Shown here piece after piece: positions 13,418 to 32,451 of a DNA stretch of 63,377 nucleotides (positions are counted from its first letter, which is position 1; every line of letters begins with the position of its first letter). The notes beneath the pieces were generated by a model. It ran no database searches and was not told the DNA's origin. It was given only the letters and a program-made list of their open reading frames with translations. Location of the stretch: the NCBI GenBank assembly GCA_944380275.1, contig CALWHB010000005.1:1-63377 (forward strand), read 5' to 3'. This DNA is from an uncultured Christensenellaceae bacterium (lineage in GTDB: Bacteria > Bacillota > Clostridia > Christensenellales > UBA3700). Both the position numbers and the translations under genes were made by a program.

Positions 13418-15908
13418 ATTGTTCGGGCTGTATAATCATATAAGCCTCGCCGCCCGCGACGCAAATCATCTTTGCAGCGGCAACGGTGTATTCGTCTGCA
13501 TACACGTGCAGCTTTTTCCTCAGCGAACTGCTGTCTGTTACAGACAGATAGTTGGCGTTTACCGCGCACAATCCCTTTTCGCGTACAGCCGCCACGTCGA
13601 CCGTATCGCCGCTCCTGAAATTGTCGCTTATCTCTTTGAGCGACAGCTCTGCCTTTATAAAGCGACTCGCCTTTTCGGGCGCGTAAACGTATTCTACCGC
13701 GTTGGTCGCAAAGTCATCCGGAATTTTGTCCACTTCTTCCTTTTTAGCAACCCCGTCGGGATTTACGAGATAGCCGTATCCCTTGCGTTCGACGGTGGAA
13801 ATTCCGTCCAGAGTGAGATTTTCAGTAAAGTCCTGCGGCGTATATTTCTTGGGGAAAATGACAAGCTCTTCTGCAATTCTGTCTATCAGCATCTTCACTT
13901 TCTTTACCGCGACTTTTGAGCGCACGTTTATCATAGTGGGCAGCTCAGCCACGCCTTTTTTGTCGCTTACGTCGCGATGATGGTAATATTTGGGGTCTAT
14001 TTCGGCAGGATTGATTGCAAGATATATCTTGAGCGTCTTGCCGTTTATCGCCATACGTGCGATATTGTTTCTTCCCTTGTTGAAATTCTCTTTGTGGCGG
14101 GACATCCTCGCGTGCATACCGTAAGAAAGCAGCGCGTTCTTGATGTCGCTGTAAAATCTCTTTACGTCGTCAGAGGCAATCCTCAGTTTCATGTCAAATG
14201 TAAATCTCGGCTTTGCCCTGCGCTTGTTGGACGCAACTTCTTCCCAGGTTATTTCGCCCGTCTGAACGCCTTCGCTTTCCCCGGTTTCCTCTTCTTCGTC
14301 TTCCTCTTCAGGTTCTTCAGACTCTTCTTCCTGTTCTTCTTGCGACTGTTCTTGTATTTCCTCTTCTTCGACGGGTTCTTCGGCAATTTCCTGCTCGGTT
14401 TCTTCGCAAGGTGCAACTACTCCATTGGCAAGCAACGATTCGGCATATGTAAGCCTTGAAAGCAGCTTTTCGAGAGTAAGCATTATAAACGGATAATTTT
14501 CAGCCGCATCGCAAGGTTTCTCTTCCTCGGTTTCAGACATACCGGAAATAAGACTTTCAGCATAAGTGAGCCTTGAAATTATGTTTTCTATAGCACGCAT
14601 CACAAACGCCTTGTCGTCATCCGCCTTTATTACCGCGGTCTGCGTTGACTTGCCGGTACGCGTTTCGAGATATGCAAGTCTTGAAGTGAGTTTTTCTATA
14701 TCCAGCAGTACGAAACGGTAAGAATTTTTAAGTTCTCCCACCTCTTTTTCGAGTCTGTCTGCTCTTTGTGTCTGTTCTTTGAGCAACTCTTCCGCTTTTG
14801 AGAGTCTTTCTTCAAGTTCTCCGTTCTGCTTGTAAAGTCTGTCCAGAGTCTTCTGTACCGCCTCAAGAGTAGCTCCCCAGTCTTCGTGTTCGTCCGTTAT
14901 GGCAACGACCGAATCCGCAACCTCTTTTCTGCACTCATCTGCTACGCAATTTTCTGCGGCTGCGGTTTCTGCAACGCTCACTTCTTCAACTTCTTCGACA
15001 ATCTCCTCTTCGTCGCATACTATACTGTCGACAAGATAACTCGTCTTTGCATAAACTGCCTGAAGTGCCGCGGAAATCAATATCGCGCCTATCGCAAGTA
15101 TAAGCGTCGCGGTATGCGGAGCGATTATGTACCCGATTACCAGCACCACTCCGGCAGGAGCGATTGCAAAAGTATACGCGTCCATAAAATTCATCGTCTT
15201 GTTGTAAAGTCTGATAATCAGTCCTACGATAAACATCACGCCTGCGACTCCGCCCATAACGGCGCAATTGAGCAACATCTCGTTTTTCGCGCTTTCGTTG
15301 AGGTCGAACACGTCCAGCCAGCCCTGTGCCTGCGCAAGTACGAACATAAGGGATATTATTACCGCTACTGCCGCCATAAACCATGTGGACGGTTTTTTTA
15401 CGAGTGCGACGTAATAATCCTTGAAATTGCTGTTGGTCTTCTCGCCGTGCGTGGAAATCAACTTGTTTCTCCTTGGAGAGAACATTATCCATCTGACGAT
15501 GCTTATCAGCACCGTGCATACGAGAGGAAGTACGTATATCAGTATTTCACCCGTATTCGTAATGTTTGCGTCAATGGAGAATTTTTTCACCATGACCACA
15601 ATGTCCGCAATCCCGACGACTATCAGCGCAACGTCAAGCGCGCTTGTGCGTCCGGACGCAATCTTCAATGCGATAAACGCTATTACCGTCAGCCCCAACA
15701 CTACGCCGAAAGCAATCAGCGTGTATTTAAGCCCGGAATTGACTGTCAGTTCCGCCTTCAGGTCGCCCAGCATGTAATTGTAGAACATATAATAAATCAC
15801 ATAGATAATCGCCGAGAGCGACAATGCGGAAAAAACTCCGCCTACCCGGGCAACCGTTTTGTAGTAATCGAACAGCTTGAAACCGCTGCCGTACTTTGCC
15901 TTTTTCAT
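13416..15908 (-). CDS. Multi-pass membrane protein with coiled coil, acidic linker and uL15-like C-terminus
   Basis: 830 aa with no whole-length family I recognise. Residues 1-300 hold about eight membrane segments. A coiled-coil region (about 345-490) contains three near-copies of an xxI/LEKLxSRLTYAESL motif. An extremely acidic Glu/Asp linker (about 500-560) leads to a basic globular domain (FTFDMKLRIASDD ... INPAEIDPKYYHHRD). The last 75 residues resemble the C-terminal domain of ribosomal protein uL15: L-x2-I-x5-F-x-SGDTVDVAAV, a GL, then SLRKKLHVYADEYTVAAAK and an AGGEAYMI-type end. SD GGAGAGGTG. Possibly a membrane tether for ribosomes or RNA; that role is inference. Confidence 0.75.
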   Translation of the reverse strand: MKKAKYGSGFKLFDYYKTVARVGGVFSALSLSAIIYVIYYMFYNYMLGDLKAELTVNSGLKYTLIAFGVVLGLTVIAFIALKIASGRTSALDVALIVVGIADIVVMVKKFSIDANITNTGEILIYVLPLVCTVLISIVRWIMFSPRRNKLISTHGEKTNSNFKDYYVALVKKPSTWFMAAVAVIISLMFVLAQAQGWLDVFDLNESAKNEMLLNCAVMGGVAGVMFIVGLIIRLYNKTMNFMDAYTFAIAPAGVVLVIGYIIAPHTATLILAIGAILISAALQAVYAKTSYLVDSIVCDEEEIVEEVEEVSVAETAAAENCVADECRKEVADSVVAITDEHEDWGATLEAVQKTLDRLYKQNGELEERLSKAEELLKEQTQRADRLEKEVGELKNSYRFVLLDIEKLTSRLAYLETRTGKSTQTAVIKADDDKAFVMRAIENIISRLTYAESLISGMSETEEEKPCDAAENYPFIMLTLEKLLSRLTYAESLLANGVVAPCEETEQEIAEEPVEEEEIQEQSQEEQEEESEEPEEEDEEEETGESEGVQTGEITWEEVASNKRRAKPRFTFDMKLRIASDDVKRFYSDIKNALLSYGMHARMSRHKENFNKGRNNIARMAINGKTLKIYLAINPAEIDPKYYHHRDVSDKKGVAELPTMINVRSKVAVKKVKMLIDRIAEELVIFPKKYTPQDFTENLTLDGISTVERKGYGYLVNPDGVAKKEEVDKIPDDFATNAVEYVYAPEKASRFIKAELSLKEISDNFRSGDTVDVAAVREKGLCAVNANYLSVTDSSSLRKKLHVYADEYTVAAAKMICVAGGEAYMIIQPEQ

Positions 15909-24416: not shown

Positions 24417-24507
24417 GCAGAGATGGCTGAGCTGGCCTAAGGCGCACGATTGGAAATCGTGTGTACGGTAAAACGTACCGAGGGTTCGAATCCCTCTCTC
24501 TGCGCCA
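24417..24507 (+). tRNA. tRNA-Ser(GGA)
   Basis: 91 nt with encoded CCA. Acceptor GCAGAGA/TCTCTGC, anticodon loop TTGGAAA (anticodon GGA), class II long variable arm GTACGGTAAAACGTAC, T arm GAGGGTTCGAATCCCTC, discriminator G. Confidence 0.97.
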
Positions 24508-24615: not shown

Positions 24616-27600
24616 TTATTTTGTCGGAGAATTTCCTATCAGCTCTTTGAGTTCGTCGGCATTGACGCTGTTTTTTTCGGCAAGAACGCTCACCAGTTTG
24701 TCGACGGCGTCTTTATTTGCTGTCAGGATTTTTTTCGCGCGCTCCAGCTGTGTACGCAGTATGGCGTTTACTCTTTCGTAAATCTGTCTTTCAAGCGCGT
24801 CGCCGAAATATCCCGTTACCGCCATGCCGTCATCCGTCATGCCCCAACTGCCGACGAGGTCGTAAGCGAGTTCCGTCGCGCTTTCAAGGTCTGAAGACGG
24901 TCCCGTGGTAAGCCCTTCGTCTTCCCCGTAATATATGAGTTCTGCCGCTCTGCCTCCAAGAGAACAGCATATCGCGTCGAGAAGTTCCGGTTTTGTCATA
25001 ACTCCTTTTTCTTCCGGCTCGTCGTCGTGCATCATATATCCGCCGTAATTGCCGCGGGCGACAACTGTAACATATGCCGGCACTTTGCCGTTTGCCCACG
25101 AAACTATCGCATGTCCCGCCTCATGACGCGCGGTCCTGAGCATAGACTCTCCCGAATATTCCTTTTTGTCGCCGTACTCGTACTTATCCTGAGCCTCTTC
25201 AAGCATCTTTACGGTAACTTCTTCTCCGTTGAGTCCCTTTACGACGTCATTGACCATATTCATTATGTCGCAGGGGCTGTATCCTACGCACTTTTTTGCC
25301 ATGAGTTCTATACCGTTTTCAAGGTCCGACGTGTCTATGCCGTGTCTTGAGAGGAAGAATTTTATCAGTTCTTCTCTGTCTTTTTTGTCAGGCAGTCCTA
25401 TGAGTATTTTTCTGTCAAAACGCCTTACAAACGCGGCGTCGAGAACTCTCGAATCTTTGCCGTTGTCCTTAATCGAGAAGTTTGTAGCGGCAAGGACTAT
25501 AACGGGTCTGTTCTCATCCACTCTGAAACCTTCCATTTCTGACAAAAAGGTATTGAGCAACTGTTCCGCTGCCTGGGTATATTCAGAACCCGTCCTCTTT
25601 TTTGCGAACGCGTCTACTTCGTCGATAAAGATAATCGAAGGGGCATATCTTCTTGCGGTACGGAACAATCTTCTTATACTTTCAGGACCTTCGCCGACAT
25701 ACTTATTAAAGAAAGAGGTACCGTTCTTTTCGATAAACGTAACGTCCGTTTCTCCCGCAAGAGCCTTGGCAAGCAAAGTTTTTCCGGTACCCGGAGGACC
25801 GTACATAAGTATGCCCTTGGGAGCCTTCAATCCGCTCGCAGTATACTTTTTGGGATTGGACAAATATGAAATGAATTCCTTCATCGACTTTTTTGCCTCG
25901 GACGCTCCTACAACATCGGCAAATCTCTCTTTGGGTTTGCTTACATCCGCAAGTACGTCTGCTGCGTCTTCTGCTCTTACTGCGCGCTTAACCGTAAGCC
26001 TTCTCGCGAGTATTTTCATCTCACTGCCGTCGTCATTTATAATCTGGGCGCCGTTATAGCTGACAACTTTCAACGAACGCGACAGTTTATAAAAATTGTT
26101 GCCTGTTACGGTAGCGTTGCGAATATATTCTATCTCTTCAATGCTGTCCTCTTTGTCGTCCTTGTCAAAGCGCAACACACCTTTAGCTCCCTTAGCGAGG
26201 AAGGTGTCAAAAGCAGCGTCGTCGTATTCCGCATCGGCATCGTTGAGTACGTAAACGGGAATTTCAGGATAATTTGTTCTCACATACCCAAAGAGTTCGA
26301 CGCCGTCTGAATCAATATCCTCAAGGTCGCTGGGGCGGAACTGCATGTTTTTTTCTCCTGCAAAAATATCGAGAACGAACGCGCTGACATCGTTTCTGAA
26401 CGCCTCTTTTACCGACTTAATATCCGTCCTGAAAATCTGCTTTACGCACGCTGCGTCGCAGATTTCCTTCATTTCTTTTTTATACTTTTTGTCAGCCGCA
26501 ACGAGCAGACTGAGCTTGCCTTTTTCTTCAAAAAGCTCTGCGACGGCACTCTTTTTATAGTCGACGTCTATATATATTTTTCTGAGTGAAGAAATATCCA
26601 TCTTCTTGCGGGAATACTGAGAAACCGCGTCAAAAAGTTCGCTGTCCACAAATCTTGAAACCGCGCCGGTCATACTGCGTGCGTCACCGCTGCCGCCCAC
26701 GGAATACATTATCAGCGAGGCGATGCGGTCATAATTGCACTCTATCTTCACACCCATATTTTCCGCAGCGGAATTTATCTCTCTTTTCAACTGCCCCAGC
26801 ACGATTTCTTTAACAGCGTAAGGTTCTAAGCGATTGAAAAGCACAACCGTGCCTTTAGCCCAGCGCGAAACGAGTTCTTTGGGGAAATAAGGTCTTCCCG
26901 TCAAGGGATTCTTGTCGCTTTCGAGCGCGGCAATCACGGCGTTCTTGGGTATAGAGGCGAGATTTGCGTTTTCAGAATCCTCATACAGATTTTTTGCAAC
27001 GTTTGTCGTAAATATCAGTATGGTATCTCTGAAAGACACGTCCTTTTTTGTTGCCGCATCCTGTATCGTACCTGCGTCAAGTATCTGCAAAAACAGTTTG
27101 AGGTTGGACTGCGACGCTTTTTCTATCTCGTCGAACAGTATTATACACTTTGGATTTTTTGCAACGAAAGAAGTAACTACTCCGGGAGTCTTGTAAATCA
27201 TATCGCTGCCGTTGAGGGGCGCGCCCGTTTCGCCGTACTCGCTCATATTAACCCTGAGATACGGTCTACCCTTGCAGAACGGTGCGGCGCACTCTGCGAG
27301 ATAAGTCTTTCCGCATCCCGGAGGTCCCGCAAAGAAAAATGTGGCAAGAGGTCCCTTACGTCCTTTGTCGGCAAGCACTTCGGCACCGAAGTATGCCCTG
27401 ACAAAAGCGGCAATCGCATGCGGCTGTCCTTTTACTTTGCGCGAAAGTTCCGCTTTCATATCAGATATGCGCTTTTGTATTTCTCCGAGAGTTTCTTTGC
27501 CTTCTTCCGCCTCGTAATCTTTTACAAATTGCTCTCTCTTCAAATCTTCGTCCTTTACGCCTGCCTGCTTTGCAAATCCGGCAAAACCTTCATAGTCGGT

Positions 27601-28098
27601 TTTGTCTTCATATGCGTCTTCGCATGCCGCTGCCACCGCTTTTTTGTCATTGTCGCTGTCTGAAAATGCTTTCATGGCGATAGCTGCAAATTGTGCCTGT
27701 TTTTCCTCTTTTCCCGTCGCGCCGACAGATACGGCTTTTTCACCGTCGGGATTATTTTGCCCGCTTTGCTCACCGACGGATTTTTCGCCGCAATCTTCAT
27801 TTGTCAGGGACCCGAATCTTATGCCGTAAGAATTGCCCGCGTTGTCGATATATTGCAGCTCAATGTCGTCAAAACTCAGGTCGCACGCCTCAGCTGCCCT
27901 CTTTACAAGTTCGCAGACCTGTTCGTAAGACAGAAATGTTTCTCCCTCTATTTCGCAGAAATTATCCTTGACGGTTTTGCAGTTTACTCCCGGCAATACC
28001 ACGGAAAGCAGTTCAATCAGCTTATCAAGCTCTTTTGCCGCTTTCTTTTCTTTGTTGTTTTCAATCCATTTGTCAGTAAATCTTATGTAGATTTTCAT
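24616..28098 (-). CDS. Soluble ClpA/B-type AAA + receiver-like + FtsH-type AAA/M41 protease fusion
   Basis: 1160 aa. An N-terminal alpha/beta region and charged linker (1-215) precede a Clp-type AAA+ ATPase (Walker A GPPGCGKT 258-265, Walker B CIILFDEIEKA, sensor IFTTN). Next is a response-regulator-like fold (about 528-660, LLVAADKK, FVLDIF with D577, PVYVL, KGAKGVLRFDK). Then an FtsH-type AAA+ (Walker A GPPGTGKT 767-774, IIFIDEVDA, VRRFDRK) and a M41 zinc protease domain (HEAGH 992-996, third ligand D1070 in PSSDLESATELA). FtsH's membrane segments are absent, so the protease should be cytoplasmic. SD AGAGGA. It follows the RyR membrane protein by 73 nt with no terminator, so the three genes form one operon. 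I know no characterised protein of this layout. Confidence 0.9.
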   Translation of the reverse strand: MKIYIRFTDKWIENNKEKKAAKELDKLIELLSVVLPGVNCKTVKDNFCEIEGETFLSYEQVCELVKRAAEACDLSFDDIELQYIDNAGNSYGIRFGSLTNEDCGEKSVGEQSGQNNPDGEKAVSVGATGKEEKQAQFAAIAMKAFSDSDNDKKAVAAACEDAYEDKTDYEGFAGFAKQAGVKDEDLKREQFVKDYEAEEGKETLGEIQKRISDMKAELSRKVKGQPHAIAAFVRAYFGAEVLADKGRKGPLATFFFAGPPGCGKTYLAECAAPFCKGRPYLRVNMSEYGETGAPLNGSDMIYKTPGVVTSFVAKNPKCIILFDEIEKASQSNLKLFLQILDAGTIQDAATKKDVSFRDTILIFTTNVAKNLYEDSENANLASIPKNAVIAALESDKNPLTGRPYFPKELVSRWAKGTVVLFNRLEPYAVKEIVLGQLKREINSAAENMGVKIECNYDRIASLIMYSVGGSGDARSMTGAVSRFVDSELFDAVSQYSRKKMDISSLRKIYIDVDYKKSAVAELFEEKGKLSLLVAADKKYKKEMKEICDAACVKQIFRTDIKSVKEAFRNDVSAFVLDIFAGEKNMQFRPSDLEDIDSDGVELFGYVRTNYPEIPVYVLNDADAEYDDAAFDTFLAKGAKGVLRFDKDDKEDSIEEIEYIRNATVTGNNFYKLSRSLKVVSYNGAQIINDDGSEMKILARRLTVKRAVRAEDAADVLADVSKPKERFADVVGASEAKKSMKEFISYLSNPKKYTASGLKAPKGILMYGPPGTGKTLLAKALAGETDVTFIEKNGTSFFNKYVGEGPESIRRLFRTARRYAPSIIFIDEVDAFAKKRTGSEYTQAAEQLLNTFLSEMEGFRVDENRPVIVLAATNFSIKDNGKDSRVLDAAFVRRFDRKILIGLPDKKDREELIKFFLSRHGIDTSDLENGIELMAKKCVGYSPCDIMNMVNDVVKGLNGEEVTVKMLEEAQDKYEYGDKKEYSGESMLRTARHEAGHAIVSWANGKVPAYVTVVARGNYGGYMMHDDEPEEKGVMTKPELLDAICCSLGGRAAELIYYGEDEGLTTGPSSDLESATELAYDLVGSWGMTDDGMAVTGYFGDALERQIYERVNAILRTQLERAKKILTANKDAVDKLVSVLAEKNSVNADELKELIGNSPTK

Positions 28099-28171
28099 AA
28101 ATTCCTCTTGTCTTTTTGTTTAAGTCTGTCCGCTCTAATCCGTTTTTCTGCTGCCGCAACCATGCTTGACC

Positions 28172-30892
28172 TTATACGTTTTTCCCGTTATCGGCTAAAT
28201 AGAACGCACTTAGCACGTTTATGACGTCATAACAACGGTTTTCCCCCTTGAGTTCGTCGTATTTCCTTATGTCGGGATGTTCTTTTACAGAAAGACGTTT
28301 GACTTCGCCTTGCACATAACCGTTTACAGTCATGTATCTTGACCATCTGTCGTGTTCCACCGCGCCCAGTCTGACGAGATTTTCTGTCGAAACGTCGTCG
28401 AAAGCTCCGTTTTTACCTCCGCCGAATTTTATCGCGCACTGACTGCGTGTGAAGGGATAAAACATTGCCGCATATCTGCTAGACAGCCTGTTGTAGAAAG
28501 ACAGTTGCGCCGTGCTATCCCATTGCATTTCAATACCGGCAGGGTCGTAACTCTCTGTGAGTTTTTTGTAATATCCGCCCGAAAGGTATAGCTTGTCCGC
28601 CGTCTTTTTTCCCGTGCATACGTCGCCCATATCCTTTCTCAACACATTATCATTGCCGTCTTTCAATCCTCTCTCTATGCAGGAATAAACGTAATTGCAG
28701 TACTTTGCATTTTCCCAGTTGACTATTCCGTCATAACAGTACATATCTTCTGCCGCACCGTAAACAATTACTTTGACCTTATCGAACCTGCGCGCATCGT
28801 TTCCGCACCAGTTTATCCTGTCATAATTCTGTTTGTCGCGCAAGTTTATCGCTATCGTCTGGTAACCGTCCTTGCCGCTGCCGCGCATAAGTTCATGCTT
28901 TACGTCTTCAAGAAGGGCGTTGGCTATACTGACGTTGCTGTCATCGTTGCCCAGAGCGATAACTATCAGATTGTAATCGTATTTTGAACACTTTCTCAGC
29001 CCTGTGTTTTTGTCAGCTCTTCTTATGAACTCTTTTGAAAAAGCGGATTCTCTGTACATATTGACGCGCAGTCTGACTTGCTTTTTTGCCGCAACTTCAG
29101 AGCAATCATTTACTTCGTCAGAATCTGCATATCGGACTTCGACGTCAGGATGCTTAATCCTGTACACTCCGCCCAGTTCGTCTGCGTTCTTGTCGAATAC
29201 GTCTGCGACAAAAGGCTGAGGATTGTAACCGAGAAGAGGCGAATCCTTCTCTTCGCCTTCGTGCTCTGCGCCATTGCCGTGTTCACCGCTTGCCGCGAAC
29301 ACGTAAGCGGCGTTCATGGTCTGCTGTCCGTTCTGCCCGAAACCTATAATCATCGCCCTGTAATTTTTATCTCTGAGTTCCTGCTCGTACAACATCGGAC
29401 AATCTCTTATAAGTTCGCTTTTTTTCAGCGCAAAATCTGCCGCCGCCAGGCTCGCCTCGTTAACTGCGTAAAATCTGAAGTGCTTTTTCAGCCGGTTGTA
29501 CGCCTCAGGACTCTTGCCTGTGTCGTTGCCTTCTGCTTTGCGGGCAAAGTAGCCTATATAACTCAGCAAGCTGATTTCTTTACCTTTTTCTATTGCGTCG
29601 CCTTTGGCAAATTTTGCCAGTTCGCTGTCGCAACGCATATCAACGTTGGAGATGTCAATATCCTCGCTTGACAGGAAGTAGTAATTTACCGTCGACAGAC
29701 GCATTTCTCCAAAGAGCCTGTCCACCTGAGCGTTGCGCGCAGCCTTGACGACTTTCTGTTCCTCTTTATTTGCCTCAGCAAATCTCTTCTCGTACTCTTC
29801 TTCGCACAGATAGTCTTCAGGGATAAAAACCTTTTTGTCCTTGAATTTTCTTCTTACGTTTCTTCCCACATCGTCAAAAACAACCTTGTCGTTTACACAA
29901 GTCTTTTCCTTTTCCCAGTCAAGCGCAAAGATATGTATTTCTTCCACTTTTCCGTCGGCATAATCTTCGTTGAACAGCTTTCTTCCATGAGGAGAAGTCA
30001 AATCCCTGTCTTTTGAATTTATCCTGAGAAATTCGGTAATCGATTTGTCGTGTTTGCCGGGACTGTATGTCAGAAACAAAAATCCCGAGTGCATGATGTC
30101 AAGACATAACGGATTCTTGCCGCTGAAAGCCTCTCTCCCTTCTGTACGGAGGAAGATTATCGCGTATTTTTGTCTGAAGATATATTTCACGACAGCTTTA
30201 GCCGCCGCAACTATTTTCTGACCCACGCCTGCCTTCCGCTCAGACTCTGCCCCCTGTTTTGTGAGGATATTGCGGTACACGTCTGCCAGACATGTCCTGT
30301 TTTTCTTATCAATGCTGTGAGCGAGAGCGACGCTGTCTTCAGTTATCGCGGTAAATATATAAACCTTGGATTTGCCCTTTCCGGAAAAATTCACCCAGGC
30401 AAAAAAACTGTATATTTCGTAACTCAGACTGAAAGTTACGACGCTGAGCACTACAAGTCCCGCATACAAAGAAGAGGCCGCGTAATACATCGCATAAAGA
30501 TTCTCGTAACTCTTATAGTAAGGCAGACCGTCAAAAGACAGTCCTCCTACCGCCTGAAATACCGAATATACGAACTTTACCGTGCTGTCCCAGGTATCGT
30601 ATTTTACCTCGCCCGTGTCTTCTATATAGCTTATCGCCATCTTTCCCGCTATGCTGAACAACAAAACAACCGCGACGAAAGAGAACTCAACCGCGTATCT
30701 CGTCCTTGTCCTCTTCTTCAAGGCAAAATAAAGCCACATCGTCAGACAGTAAAGCACGACTATTATGAGCGCGCCTTTCAGAATACCCATAGTAACAATC
30801 AGCCAGTCAGATATGACTATGCCCGCAAAATTCTCGTACGGGACAAGCAATACTCCCAGCAGGACTATGCAAACAGCTAACAGTTTTTTCAC
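28172..30892 (-). CDS. Membrane TrkA-N/RCK-like protein with C-terminal RyR domain
   Basis: 906 aa. About four membrane segments (4-26, 31-58, 68-90, 130-165) with a possible re-entrant loop (102-128, VYSVFQAVGGLSFDG) give a small channel-like domain. A first Rossmann-like unit starts at KVYIFTAITEDSVALAHSI (176) and a second has the dinucleotide loop MIIGFGQNGQQT (514-524), as in TrkA-N/RCK domains. The C-terminus (843-900) is a RyR domain: EHDRWSRYMTVNGY, then HPDIRKYDEL and a YDVIN helix. In bacteria such RyR proteins are thought to sense nucleotide-type ligands; the ligand and conducted ion are inference. GTG start with AGGAG 8 nt upstream, 4 nt after the preceding stop. Confidence 0.82.
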   Translation of the reverse strand: MKKLLAVCIVLLGVLLVPYENFAGIVISDWLIVTMGILKGALIIVVLYCLTMWLYFALKKRTRTRYAVEFSFVAVVLLFSIAGKMAISYIEDTGEVKYDTWDSTVKFVYSVFQAVGGLSFDGLPYYKSYENLYAMYYAASSLYAGLVVLSVVTFSLSYEIYSFFAWVNFSGKGKSKVYIFTAITEDSVALAHSIDKKNRTCLADVYRNILTKQGAESERKAGVGQKIVAAAKAVVKYIFRQKYAIIFLRTEGREAFSGKNPLCLDIMHSGFLFLTYSPGKHDKSITEFLRINSKDRDLTSPHGRKLFNEDYADGKVEEIHIFALDWEKEKTCVNDKVVFDDVGRNVRRKFKDKKVFIPEDYLCEEEYEKRFAEANKEEQKVVKAARNAQVDRLFGEMRLSTVNYYFLSSEDIDISNVDMRCDSELAKFAKGDAIEKGKEISLLSYIGYFARKAEGNDTGKSPEAYNRLKKHFRFYAVNEASLAAADFALKKSELIRDCPMLYEQELRDKNYRAMIIGFGQNGQQTMNAAYVFAASGEHGNGAEHEGEEKDSPLLGYNPQPFVADVFDKNADELGGVYRIKHPDVEVRYADSDEVNDCSEVAAKKQVRLRVNMYRESAFSKEFIRRADKNTGLRKCSKYDYNLIVIALGNDDSNVSIANALLEDVKHELMRGSGKDGYQTIAINLRDKQNYDRINWCGNDARRFDKVKVIVYGAAEDMYCYDGIVNWENAKYCNYVYSCIERGLKDGNDNVLRKDMGDVCTGKKTADKLYLSGGYYKKLTESYDPAGIEMQWDSTAQLSFYNRLSSRYAAMFYPFTRSQCAIKFGGGKNGAFDDVSTENLVRLGAVEHDRWSRYMTVNGYVQGEVKRLSVKEHPDIRKYDELKGENRCYDVINVLSAFYLADNGKNV

Positions 30893-30896
30893 TCCC

Positions 30897-32249
30897 TTAT
30901 CTCCTCGCTTTTATTATCTTTTTATCAACGTAAGCCAGCAGTCTTTGTGCCTCGTCAATCAGTTGATAGTCGTATTTTCTGACGTCTTCTTTTTCCTCGT
31001 CCGTACCTTTGCGCACTGCCTCGTCCCTGCCGAAATCAGCAAGCCCTCTCCATGTGGTGAGATTGACGTGTTTTCCCTCTTCAAACAGCTTGTCCTTGCC
31101 TTTGAGCGCATACTCGCTCTTTGCCGCGGGAACAAACCCGCAAGCCGCCATATATCCGTTCCATCTGAAATGCTCTCTGACAGCGAGAGCCGTCCTTAGT
31201 CCGCACGTCCGAGTCGTCCTCAAGTCGTAAACTACGTTGCCCGCGACGTATTTGCGGGGATTGCCTTCGTCATACAACGCATAAAAATCAACCGCGGCAT
31301 TTTCGCCTTCATCAGCGCAGTCGTACCCGCACTCAAGCAGAACTTCTCTCAAAGCGGTCGCCGCGTAAACGTTTGAAAGTTTTTTGACGGGTGCGGCAGA
31401 CGAAGTTTTGAACCGTCTTTCCGCCTCTCCGAGCGAACGTGTAAATGCGCCGCCATACACCAGGTCGCGTCCGTAGGCAATCCTGCATAGACAGAGATAG
31501 GTTTCAACGCTTTCTTTTTCTGACGGCATACTTAAGATTTGCCCTTTTTCTTCGGCACCGTCGCAGAATACGACGCAGTCTGCTCCTTTCTCTTTAAGCA
31601 GCCTTTCAACCCGTTGCGCGCGCGAAACATCGCCGTTTGCGACAACGACAAACACAAAGATTTGCATATTGTCCCGGCAAAGACGTTGAACCGCGTCGCA
31701 ATCGCCCTCAGCAAATACCGTACTTATGTTTTTTTGCGGCATCTCGTAAAAATCCGCGTCGTCGGCGTGACTGTCTACAAAAAAATTAAATTTTGAGTAT
31801 CCGCCGCGGTACAACCTCTTTTCTTCTGCCGAAACGCTGAAAACGCAGTCAGTACTCACCTCTTTTATAAGGCCGTCCTCTCCCGTATCCGTCGCGGCGA
31901 ATACCGAGGCAAACGCCTTGAAAATCTCAGAGGACAAAGAATCAAATCCGAAAAACGCCGCGCATACTCTTTTGCCTTCGCTGCAAAAATGCGATTTAAC
32001 TTTGCAAAAAAACGCGGGGGGATACCTGAACATGACGGTTAGCGCGCGCGCCCTGTCAAGGTTGACAAGGTCGATACGCGGTACGGCACCTGCCGTTGCC
32101 TCAAGGTTGAGTTCTGCATCCGAATCGCACAATACGACCGCTTTTTTGCCTTCAGGAACTATCAGTGAAAGCCTGCTTTCAAACTCGTCCGCTGCCTTTC
32201 TTCCCTCTATTCTCAATATTACAGTTCCGTCTTGCAGGTAATGCGACAT
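30897..32249 (-). CDS. Soluble TrkA-N/RyR-like paralogue of the neighbouring membrane protein
   Basis: 450 aa, no membrane segment. It lines up with the C-terminal half of the 28172-30892 product: AAFFGFDSLSSEIFKAFASVFAA (97-119) with its GFGQNGQQ region, MQIFVFVVVANGDVSRAQRVERLL (195-218) with IVIALGNDDSNVSIANALL, and a C-terminal EHFRWNGYMAACGF (359-372) with EHDRWSRYMTVNGY, then a HVNL...RKYDYQLIDEA region matching HPDI...YDVIN. The glycine loop is degenerate (GFDSLS for GFGQNG), so nucleotide binding there may be lost. First gene of the operon, behind promoter 32303-32331. Likely a regulatory partner of the membrane protein (inference). Confidence 0.7.
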   Translation of the reverse strand: MSHYLQDGTVILRIEGRKAADEFESRLSLIVPEGKKAVVLCDSDAELNLEATAGAVPRIDLVNLDRARALTVMFRYPPAFFCKVKSHFCSEGKRVCAAFFGFDSLSSEIFKAFASVFAATDTGEDGLIKEVSTDCVFSVSAEEKRLYRGGYSKFNFFVDSHADDADFYEMPQKNISTVFAEGDCDAVQRLCRDNMQIFVFVVVANGDVSRAQRVERLLKEKGADCVVFCDGAEEKGQILSMPSEKESVETYLCLCRIAYGRDLVYGGAFTRSLGEAERRFKTSSAAPVKKLSNVYAATALREVLLECGYDCADEGENAAVDFYALYDEGNPRKYVAGNVVYDLRTTRTCGLRTALAVREHFRWNGYMAACGFVPAAKSEYALKGKDKLFEEGKHVNLTTWRGLADFGRDEAVRKGTDEEKEDVRKYDYQLIDEAQRLLAYVDKKIIKARR

Positions 32250-32269
32250 TTACTCTTCTCTCTTTCTTT

Positions 32270-32283
32270 GCGCGTATACGCGC
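32270..32283. promoter_or_regulatory. Palindrome just after the RyR-operon transcription start
   Basis: GCGCGTATACGCGC, a perfect 14-mer, lies about 13-26 nt into the predicted transcript, between promoter and SD. It could be an operator or a short hairpin. I saw no second copy in the window. Confidence 0.5.
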
Positions 32284-32302
32284 CTTTTTTATTAATAGTC
32301 TT

Positions 32303-32331
32303 ATTTTACTATAAGTATTATAACTTGTCAA
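32303..32331 (-). promoter_or_regulatory. Promoter of the RyR/AAA-protease operon
   Basis: TTGACA (32326-32331), 17 bp, TAAAAT (32303-32308). The only good promoter seen upstream of the three genes. Confidence 0.85.
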
Positions 32332-32426: not shown

Positions 32427-32451
32427 AAAAACGCCCTCCTTGCGGAGAGCG
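32427..32451 (-). terminator. Terminator of the permease gene
   Basis: Minus strand CGCTCTCC, loop GCAA, GGAGGGCG (one G-U pair), then five T. It separates the permease from the RyR operon. Confidence 0.85.

Follow-up and report, generated by a model that had tools for sequence, protein, structure and literature searches.

The stretch of DNA analysed here, hereafter the window, comprises the 63,377 nucleotides (nt) of contig CALWHB010000005.1 (contig C5) in assembly GCA_944380275.1 of an uncultured Christensenellaceae bacterium of the gut, the genome of which totals 1.78 Mb in 75 contigs and is ~90% complete. Its positions 24616-32331 carry a unit of three minus-strand open reading frames encoding, in order of transcription, proteins of 450, 906 and 1160 amino acids (aa): a soluble protein with an RyR-like domain (gene 1), a channel-like membrane protein ending in an RyR domain (gene 2), and a protease that joins two AAA+ modules to an M41 peptidase (gene 3). 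An initial annotation made from the sequence had regarded the unit as a candidate undescribed system in which a ligand recognised by the RyR proteins gates a channel and controls proteolysis. That annotation could not reveal that RyR proteins of this kind are tied to TIR enzymes, and the unit is considered here as a possible module responding to TIR-made signals.

The three-gene unit and its flanking signals

Gene 1 (P0001; 30897-32249, minus strand, as are the features below unless stated otherwise) encodes what appears to be a soluble, shortened paralogue of gene 2, with a Rossmann-like region and a C-terminal RyR-like domain. Gene 2 (P0002; 28172-30892) begins with GTG and encodes a membrane protein with tandem Rossmann (RCK-like) units and a C-terminal RyR domain, and gene 3 (P0003; 24616-28098) encodes a soluble fused AAA+ protease. 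The gaps are 4 nt between genes 1 and 2 and 73 nt between genes 2 and 3; the order, strand and spacing given by the initial annotation were recovered when the frames were re-derived.

The transcriptional signals proposed for the unit fared unevenly. The single promoter assigned to it, TTGACA-17-TAAAAT (32303-32331), is a consensus match only, at 11/12 positions; it lies before gene 1 and is the top scorer of 10 such sites in the region, but 9.2 sites are expected in shuffled sequence, so that their number is not above chance. The claim that no terminator interrupts the unit stands for the 4-nt and 73-nt gaps, in which the terminator scan listed none, but not for the interior of gene 2, where a weak hairpin (30210-30187) was found; the 11 terminator-like sites of the region show no excess over the 9.6 expected from shuffles. 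The neighbouring transcription units do appear to be separate. A terminator-like hairpin of 8 pairs, 6 of them G-C, with a T-rich tail (32432-32451) marks the boundary between an upstream permease gene and gene 1, while 3' of gene 3 a hairpin at about 24538-24511, recognised by eye and absent from the scanner's listing, is followed by a tRNA-Ser(GGA) gene on the opposite strand (24417-24507, plus). The same tRNA gene also occurs at 5/7 fetched loci of the genus that carry the unit.

The RyR proteins and their putative ligand pocket

The membrane part of gene 2 (30413-30892) consists of four hydrophobic segments by hydropathy (residues 1-19, 24-42, 64-82 and 134-152) together with a pore-like stretch that, judged by eye in the alignment, is conserved and rich in Gln and Gly. 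It is followed by a first Rossmann-like unit (residues ~170-430; 29603-30385), a second (residues ~505-740; 28673-29380), and the RyR domain (28175-28495). No Pfam match to TrkA_N was obtained in gene 2 itself. The RyR domain of gene 2 as a single sequence matched PF02026 with an E value of 0.0059, under the gathering score, and that family was matched by 5/14 RyR segments from genes 1 and 2; the profile of a 13-member gene 2 family, picked by hand (set A13), matched solved RyR domains with an E value of 2e-17. The RyR call of gene 2 in the initial annotation is thus upheld by the family profile and not by the single-sequence search, and its description of a channel-like architecture with two Rossmann units and a C-terminal RyR domain agrees with the hydropathy, the family profile, and homology to a channel family.

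This last homology was found by profile comparison between the gene 2 family and a family of shorter RyR proteins (99.9% probability, E 1e-31, 491 columns). One of the latter (from locus L112) matches Ion_trans_2 with an E value of 2e-13 and has a TVGYGD filter, and because of these two features the wider family of gene 2 contains a real channel. The AlphaFold model of gene 2 is of low confidence (predicted local distance difference test, pLDDT, 61); for this model Foldseek placed GsuK, an RCK channel, first (E 0.005, probability 0.99, root-mean-square deviation [rmsd] 14) and ranked 4n05, a bacterial RyR domain, 47th (probability 0.90). GsuK is regulated by NAD+ and ADP.

Gene 1 lacks membrane segments by hydropathy, in agreement with its earlier description as soluble. 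Comparison of the gene 1 and gene 2 family profiles (99.1%, E 1e-18, 340 columns, RyR motif included) points to gene 1 being a shortened, diverged paralogue of gene 2, a relationship beyond the reach of the initial annotation; five longer gene 1 relatives among 14 (L039, L087, L099, L100 and L110) start with hydrophobic segments. Its designation as a TrkA-N/RyR protein holds in part: kinship with gene 2 and a complete set of pocket residues in 14/14 relatives favour the RyR assignment, but Pfam RyR was matched by 0/14 family members, and TrkA_N by a single one of the 14 with an E value of 0.012. The RyR-like domain of gene 1 (30900-31202) holds H360, W363, H394 and D427, and these residues provide the main support for its RyR identity. 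A Dus match was dropped, being below cut-off and present in one of the 14 relatives, and no usable match was found for the gene 1 structure model (pLDDT 53).

The significance of these residues comes from phage proteins. According to a 2026 preprint, phage RyR domains bind and cleave TIR-made cyclic ADP-ribose (cADPR) signals, and one of these, RyDEP, contacts its ADP-ribose-type ligand, cADPR, through H75, W78, H100 and D117, with H75 and D117 serving as the catalytic pair (PMC13232231). The corresponding quartet of gene 2 is H847, W850, H872 and D889, with offsets of 3, 25 and 42 that are identical to those of RyDEP. Both window proteins retain the full quartet, and it is complete in 27/34 gene 2 relatives (rows with E < 1e-10), 14/14 gene 1 relatives, and 10/11 shorter RyR channels. 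Among gene 2 relatives, the last Asp is replaced by Asn (two) or Ser (one) in L040, L041 and L102, and the first His by Lys in L082, L085 and L086. In the latter three, Lys takes the place of the RyDEP-type catalytic His and the W, H and D residues remain intact, suggesting that these proteins bind the ligand but do not cleave it. Given that the catalytic pair of RyDEP is H75 and D117, the pattern of losses is more in keeping with a sensor than with an enzyme, yet it also indicates a pocket under less than rigid conservation.

The fused protease and the distribution of the unit

Gene 3 combines an AAA_2 module of the type found in the second ring of ClpB/ClpA (residues ~205-510; 26569-27486; E 7e-27), an intervening domain (residues ~522-640; 26179-26535), an FtsH-type AAA module (residues ~720-955; 25234-25941; E 6e-49), and a Peptidase_M41 domain (24640-25149; E 1e-29) with the motif HEAGH and a distal Asp. 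The AAA_2, AAA and Peptidase_M41 matches all pass the Pfam cut-offs, and the Walker A and B motifs of both AAA modules, HExxH and the distal Asp were seen by eye to be intact in 23/23 relatives >1000 aa, which bears out the earlier call of a double-AAA+ M41 protease; loci L145 and L156, which hold a partial protease, were counted among loci and excluded from these 23 aligned rows. No hydrophobic segment that could serve as a membrane anchor was detected by hydropathy in gene 3, its N-terminal region included. The protein is far from either parent family: it scored 339.9 bits against the FtsH equivalog TIGR01241 (cut-off 600), and 113 and 103 bits against ClpA (cut-off 993) and ClpB (cut-off 1232), respectively, and of the two Clp rings it has the second-ring-type module only.

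The domain between the AAA modules was absent from the first account of the locus. Its relation to response-regulator receivers was recognised by profile comparisons, with an hhalign value of 95.3% against eight receivers of its own genome and, for the 23-row profile, an E value of 2e-4 against the YycF receiver; individually, 4/23 family members matched PF00072. The 23-row set was decisive, tests with only 8 genus rows being too weak (their best PDB match was a haemoglobin). The beta-3 Asp of the receiver-like domain is present in 90% or more of the 23 rows, and inspection of these by eye revealed neither the acidic pair nor the conserved Lys on which phosphorylation depends; for these reasons the domain is best called a pseudo-receiver, with the appearance of being phosphorylation-dead. 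No description of this fusion of Clp-type AAA, receiver and M41 domains was found in open-licence PubMed Central (PMC) papers. PADLOC matched the AAA region of gene 3 (IetA, E 3e-43, and others), gave a weak match for gene 1 (E 0.016), and none for gene 2; the IetA and other gene 3 matches were read as general AAA kinship. Outside the genus, a YbjN-like gene was found near the gene 3-type protease at 7/17 loci (L143, L144, L145, L147, L149, L151 and L152) by BLAST homology, one of them being Pfam-checked (E 2e-9).

The distribution of the three genes was surveyed in 13 genomes of the genus and 396 of the order, and that of RyR in 336 of the class besides the source; outside the genus, open frames run from stop to stop, so that some rows carry extra residues. 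Named records with relatives are those of uncultured Christensenellaceae or Christensenella, and of Candidatus Ornithoclostridium. Within the genus, gene 2 is present in 9/13 genomes: genes 1-2-3 are contiguous in six (the source, G013, G019, G021, G022 and G023), genes 2-3 in two further (G015 and G017), and G014 carries a diverged gene 1-gene 2 pair, leaving four genomes with no gene 2 match. Within the genus, the homologues of genes 1, 2 and 3 share 36-37%, 39-48% and 53-58% identity, respectively, with the window proteins. In five compared genomes, four of which lack gene 2, the adjacent permease shows 65-89% identity, so that it provides no strict yardstick. In G020, the permease of which is 89% identical, none of the three genes lies beside it. 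The outer neighbours include genes for a vWA protein, a PP2C-like protein and a Ser/Thr kinase 3' of gene 3 in 4/8 genus loci (Pfam on representatives and family profiles), the PP2C-like call being weak (Pfam E 0.0095 in one representative and none in another), and a DUF4011 helicase-nuclease 5' of gene 1 in 3/8.

In the order, gene 2 relatives occur in 45/396 genomes (24 genera) and the middle domain of gene 3 in 24/396 (16 genera). The two genes share 17 genomes where 2.7 are expected, and 11 where 1.8 are expected once the genus is removed (p 4e-8), so that their sharing of genomes is well above chance. G046 (L157), which has a weak receiver-profile match (E 8e-4) with no protease there, is part of these Fisher counts and not of the 17 gene 3 loci outside the genus. 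Adjacency is more restricted: the expectation that the three genes would neighbour each other holds in the genus, but outside it gene 3 adjoins an RyR gene at 3/17 loci, namely L149, L150 and one stretch of G320, the RyR proteins of L149 and L150 being identified through homology and the quartet, with no Pfam match. The G320 stretch (L140, L082) contains gene 3, a TIR-NACHT gene, a gene 2 relative, two vWA genes, a kinase gene and a PP2C gene. Because gene 3 is often independent of RyR genes, its distribution argues against an obligate channel subunit and for an effector or turnover module that is portable. What looked like an overlap between genes 2 and 3 in L034 proved to be an artefact of the stop-to-stop frames. 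A viral origin was rejected, as gene 2 had no tblastn match in 50,697 phage records and no viral contig of IMG/VR matched gene 3 in an insensitive scan with single-sequence patterns.

Association with TIR genes

The source genome has six matches to TIR_2 (PF13676), five of them above cut-off, on contigs other than that of the window. Within the genus, TIR_2 was found in 9/9 genomes with gene 2 and 0/4 without (Fisher 0.0014), the match in G021 being single and marginal. The association extends to the order, in which PF13676 (E <= 0.001) was detected in 43/45 gene 2-positive and 131/351 gene 2-negative genomes (Fisher 6e-15); it persists when the genus is removed (36/38 gene 2-positive genomes, Fisher 2e-12) and when genera are counted by hand (24/24 gene 2-positive vs 48/118 other genera). 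A control family, the type I specificity subunit PF01420, was present in 18/45 gene 2-positive genomes vs 144/396 overall, with no association (p 0.62).

Physical linkage was assessed at 36 order loci (L080-L115), taken from 36/38 gene 2-positive genomes outside the genus; G195 was unfetched, and G002 (L041), fetched apart from the 36, had no TIR gene nearby. Among the TIR neighbours of RyR genes recognised initially by Pfam, two were above cut-off and that of L107 below, and the loci were searched with a profile built from 16 TIR domains of the genus together with those of L082, L089 and L107. TIR genes were found inside the fetched stretch of 10/36 loci, compared with the 0.94 that the numbers of Pfam TIR matches and the genome sizes would predict. 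At eight of the 36 the TIR gene is the immediate neighbour of the RyR gene (L082, L089, L100, L107, L109, L110, L112 and L113), L113 having a small frame between the two and L100 a divergent pair in which the RyR gene is a gene 1 relative. In the class, RyR was matched above cut-off in 23/336 genomes; of 28 RyR matches outside the source, 19 are covered by 17 stretches and the other nine are short frames of ~96-129 aa. Four of the 17 stretches (L239-L242) have a TIR gene directly beside RyR.

The arrangements themselves are varied. In L112 (8162-12267) an Ion_trans_2 channel with the TVGYGD filter and a C-terminal RyR domain is directly followed by a TIR gene. In L239 (2080-7375) and L240 the gene for a long RyR protein, one for a stand-alone RyR protein and a TIR gene are consecutive, the order in L240 being taken from coordinates; the long RyR protein of L239 has membrane segments and its TIR gene encodes a TIR-LRR protein. 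By analogy with RyDEP, the small stand-alone RyR proteins could act as an off switch. A second arrangement is seen in L241 (6828-9531) and L242 (8163-10838), where a 575-578 aa protein with a C-terminal RyR domain and no membrane segment precedes a TIR gene of ~320 aa. In the source genome itself, contig C31 (L225, 5894-7570) encodes a single protein joining nitroreductase, TIR and BspA-type LRR domains.

Proposed function and alternatives

The architecture of the unit, its pocket residues, the co-occurrence with TIR genes, and the adjacency in some relatives are established; the identity of the ligand and a role in defence are what we infer. Taken together, we favour, with slightly better than even confidence, a Thoeris-like alarm in which a RyR channel module with its own protease responds to a TIR-made signal. 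TIR enzymes encoded elsewhere in the genome would convert NAD+ to an ADP-ribose-type signal upon attack or stress, and the RyR pockets of genes 2 and 1 would bind it through the H/W/H/D quartet. Binding would then shift the RCK-like ring and open or close the membrane pore. Gene 3 may act downstream; an effector is its likeliest role, the alternative being a turnover factor that resets the sensors, and the pseudo-receiver may be the docking switch of this cytosolic ClpB-type/FtsH-type protease. In relatives, the same sensors adjoin genes resembling TerY-P phospho-switches.

Several observations weigh against this proposal. A K+ selectivity filter was not recognisable by eye in gene 2, and the resemblance to GsuK depends on the low-confidence model (pLDDT 61; E 0.005, rmsd 14). 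No TIR_2 match lies on contig C5, so there is no TIR gene at the locus, and an adjacent TIR gene is missing from 28/36 order loci and 13/17 class stretches. The co-occurrence tests ignore phylogeny, and their p-values may be inflated; the link of gene 3 to TIR is weaker than that of gene 2 (20/24, and 14/18 with the genus removed, p 0.0025). In six gene 2 relatives one residue of the quartet is missing (the seventh incomplete row, L091, is cut off), and as the quartet doubles as the active site of RyDEP, the domain could cleave the signal instead of sensing it. With respect to the protease, the infrequent adjacency to RyR genes outside the genus is compounded by 7/24 order genomes that carry gene 3 relatives and have no gene 2 match.

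The best-surviving alternative, which we consider possible and less probable than the alarm, is that genes 1 and 2 make up the functional unit as a TIR/RyR channel pair, gene 3 being a distinct AAA+ protease for quality control that is co-located in the genus by descent. Besides the 3/17 adjacency, it would account for the neighbouring gene 1-gene 2 pairs that occur without gene 3 at 6/36 order loci (L084, L087, L090, L099, L100 and L105) and in G014, and for the distinct company of gene 3 elsewhere, which includes the YbjN-like genes at 7/17 loci and kinase/WD40 genes nearby in L154 (Pfam) and L155 (BLAST only). It is countered by the adjacency of genes 2 and 3 in all eight genus genomes that yielded gene 3 (the search for it did not extend to G016 and G018), even though the outer neighbours differ, and by the 11 shared genomes outside the genus.

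A less probable view takes the locus as a TerY-P-type, phospho-switched conflict island with the RyR pair and protease as its variable effector, from which the kinase, phosphatase and vWA controls have been lost. The vWA, PP2C-like and kinase genes 3' of gene 3 in 4/8 genus loci speak for it, as does the presence of all three in the fetched stretch of 4/36 order loci (L082, L088, L101 and L102), one with a TerD gene; there is also precedent in the description, from work on CoCoNuT systems, of TerY-P triads coupled to defence systems of other kinds (PMC11090510). The triad was, however, unmatched in the window by family-profile search, and a PP2C-family search of nine genus genomes including the source, run without a positive control, gave no match. 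Least probable of all is housekeeping ion or redox homeostasis, with the RCK/RyR channel sensing NAD(H)/ADP and the protease removing damaged proteins in the absence of any immune role: the GsuK-like fold match of the gene 2 model and the failure to match gene 2 in phage records or gene 3 in viral contigs would be in keeping with it, but the patchy presence of gene 2 (9/13 genus and 45/396 order genomes), the fast divergence of genes 1 and 2 (36-48% identity within one genus), the TIR link, and the TerY-P-like, DUF4011-nuclease and TerD neighbours in relatives all speak against it.

Among known systems, Thoeris is the closest kind to the alarm proposed here; provided that the ligand has been assigned correctly, members of the RyR-channel family would function as Thoeris effectors do. 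As in Thoeris, TIR is tied to the sensor genes, here through genome co-occurrence and direct adjacency in some relatives, and the sensor has what appears to be a pocket of the kind known to bind 2'/3'cADPR. The effector side, in contrast, is an RCK/RyR channel with a fused AAA+ protease; no TIR gene stands in the operon, and orthology to ThsA/ThsB is not among the likenesses. With RyDEP and the phage RyR sponges the unit shares the RyR/R12 family and the quartet at equal spacing, but the phage proteins destroy or sponge the signal, whereas here the RyR domain lies C-terminally in bacterial proteins, one of the membrane and one soluble (PMC13232231). Of two open-licence PMC papers in which both Thoeris and RyR appear, the one treating RyR as a signal-binding domain is this preprint, which deals with phage proteins. 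Judged from the low-confidence model, gene 2 resembles the RCK channels GsuK and MthK in having a membrane part followed by tandem Rossmann units, and the L112 relative has the K+ filter; gene 2 differs in its added RyR domain and in having no recognisable filter. Gene 3 joins AAA modules of both the FtsH and the ClpB/ClpA kinds to an intact M41 active site, but it differs in being soluble and fused, with a pseudo-receiver between its modules and scores far under the NCBIfam cut-offs. An FtsH-type AAA component is likewise part of the MoxR-vWA FtsH ternary systems, which are predicted to function in conflict; these have two FtsH-type AAA domains, the first inactive, with MoxR and vWA, whereas gene 3 has a ClpB-type AAA with intact motifs, a pseudo-receiver, and RyR sensors alongside (PMC7159879).

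If the alarm reading is right, a bacterial channel-plus-RyR family linked to TIR genes would provide the host side of the signalling reported for phage RyR domains, as a candidate class of ADP-ribose-signal receptor, and would make an old question directly testable: do ADP-ribose signals gate channels through RyR domains? A bolder extension, which we put forward tentatively and as the less likely case, is an immunity that runs from TIR to an RyR channel: (cyclic) ADP-ribose produced by TIR would gate the RCK/RyR channel as a prokaryotic counterpart, and possibly forerunner, of the animal cADPR-ryanodine-receptor axis; the genus would have recruited the fused Clp/pseudo-receiver/FtsH protease as a second effector, and in some copies (L239, L240) the signal would be switched off by the separate small RyR protein encoded alongside. 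Earlier comparative-genomics predictions on bacterial RyR domains may exist; no account joining the RyR domain, TrkA-N and bacteria was found in open-licence PMC papers, and the order ClpB-type AAA, pseudo-receiver, FtsH-type AAA and M41 in gene 3 would add a protease architecture to those described there.

With TerY-P triads and CoCoNuT Type II/III-A systems, the unit has in common the vWA, PP2C-like and kinase genes near it in 4/8 genus loci; the core effectors are unrelated, and the triad is absent at the window. In a sister genus (L040, L041 and L042), a vWA gene immediately precedes a very diverged RyR-channel relative, which in L042 is short and a BLAST match only. In L088 a TerD-domain gene (13716-14711) lies between the RyR channel and the kinase/PP2C/vWA triad, and thereby ties RyR channels to Ter-type systems.

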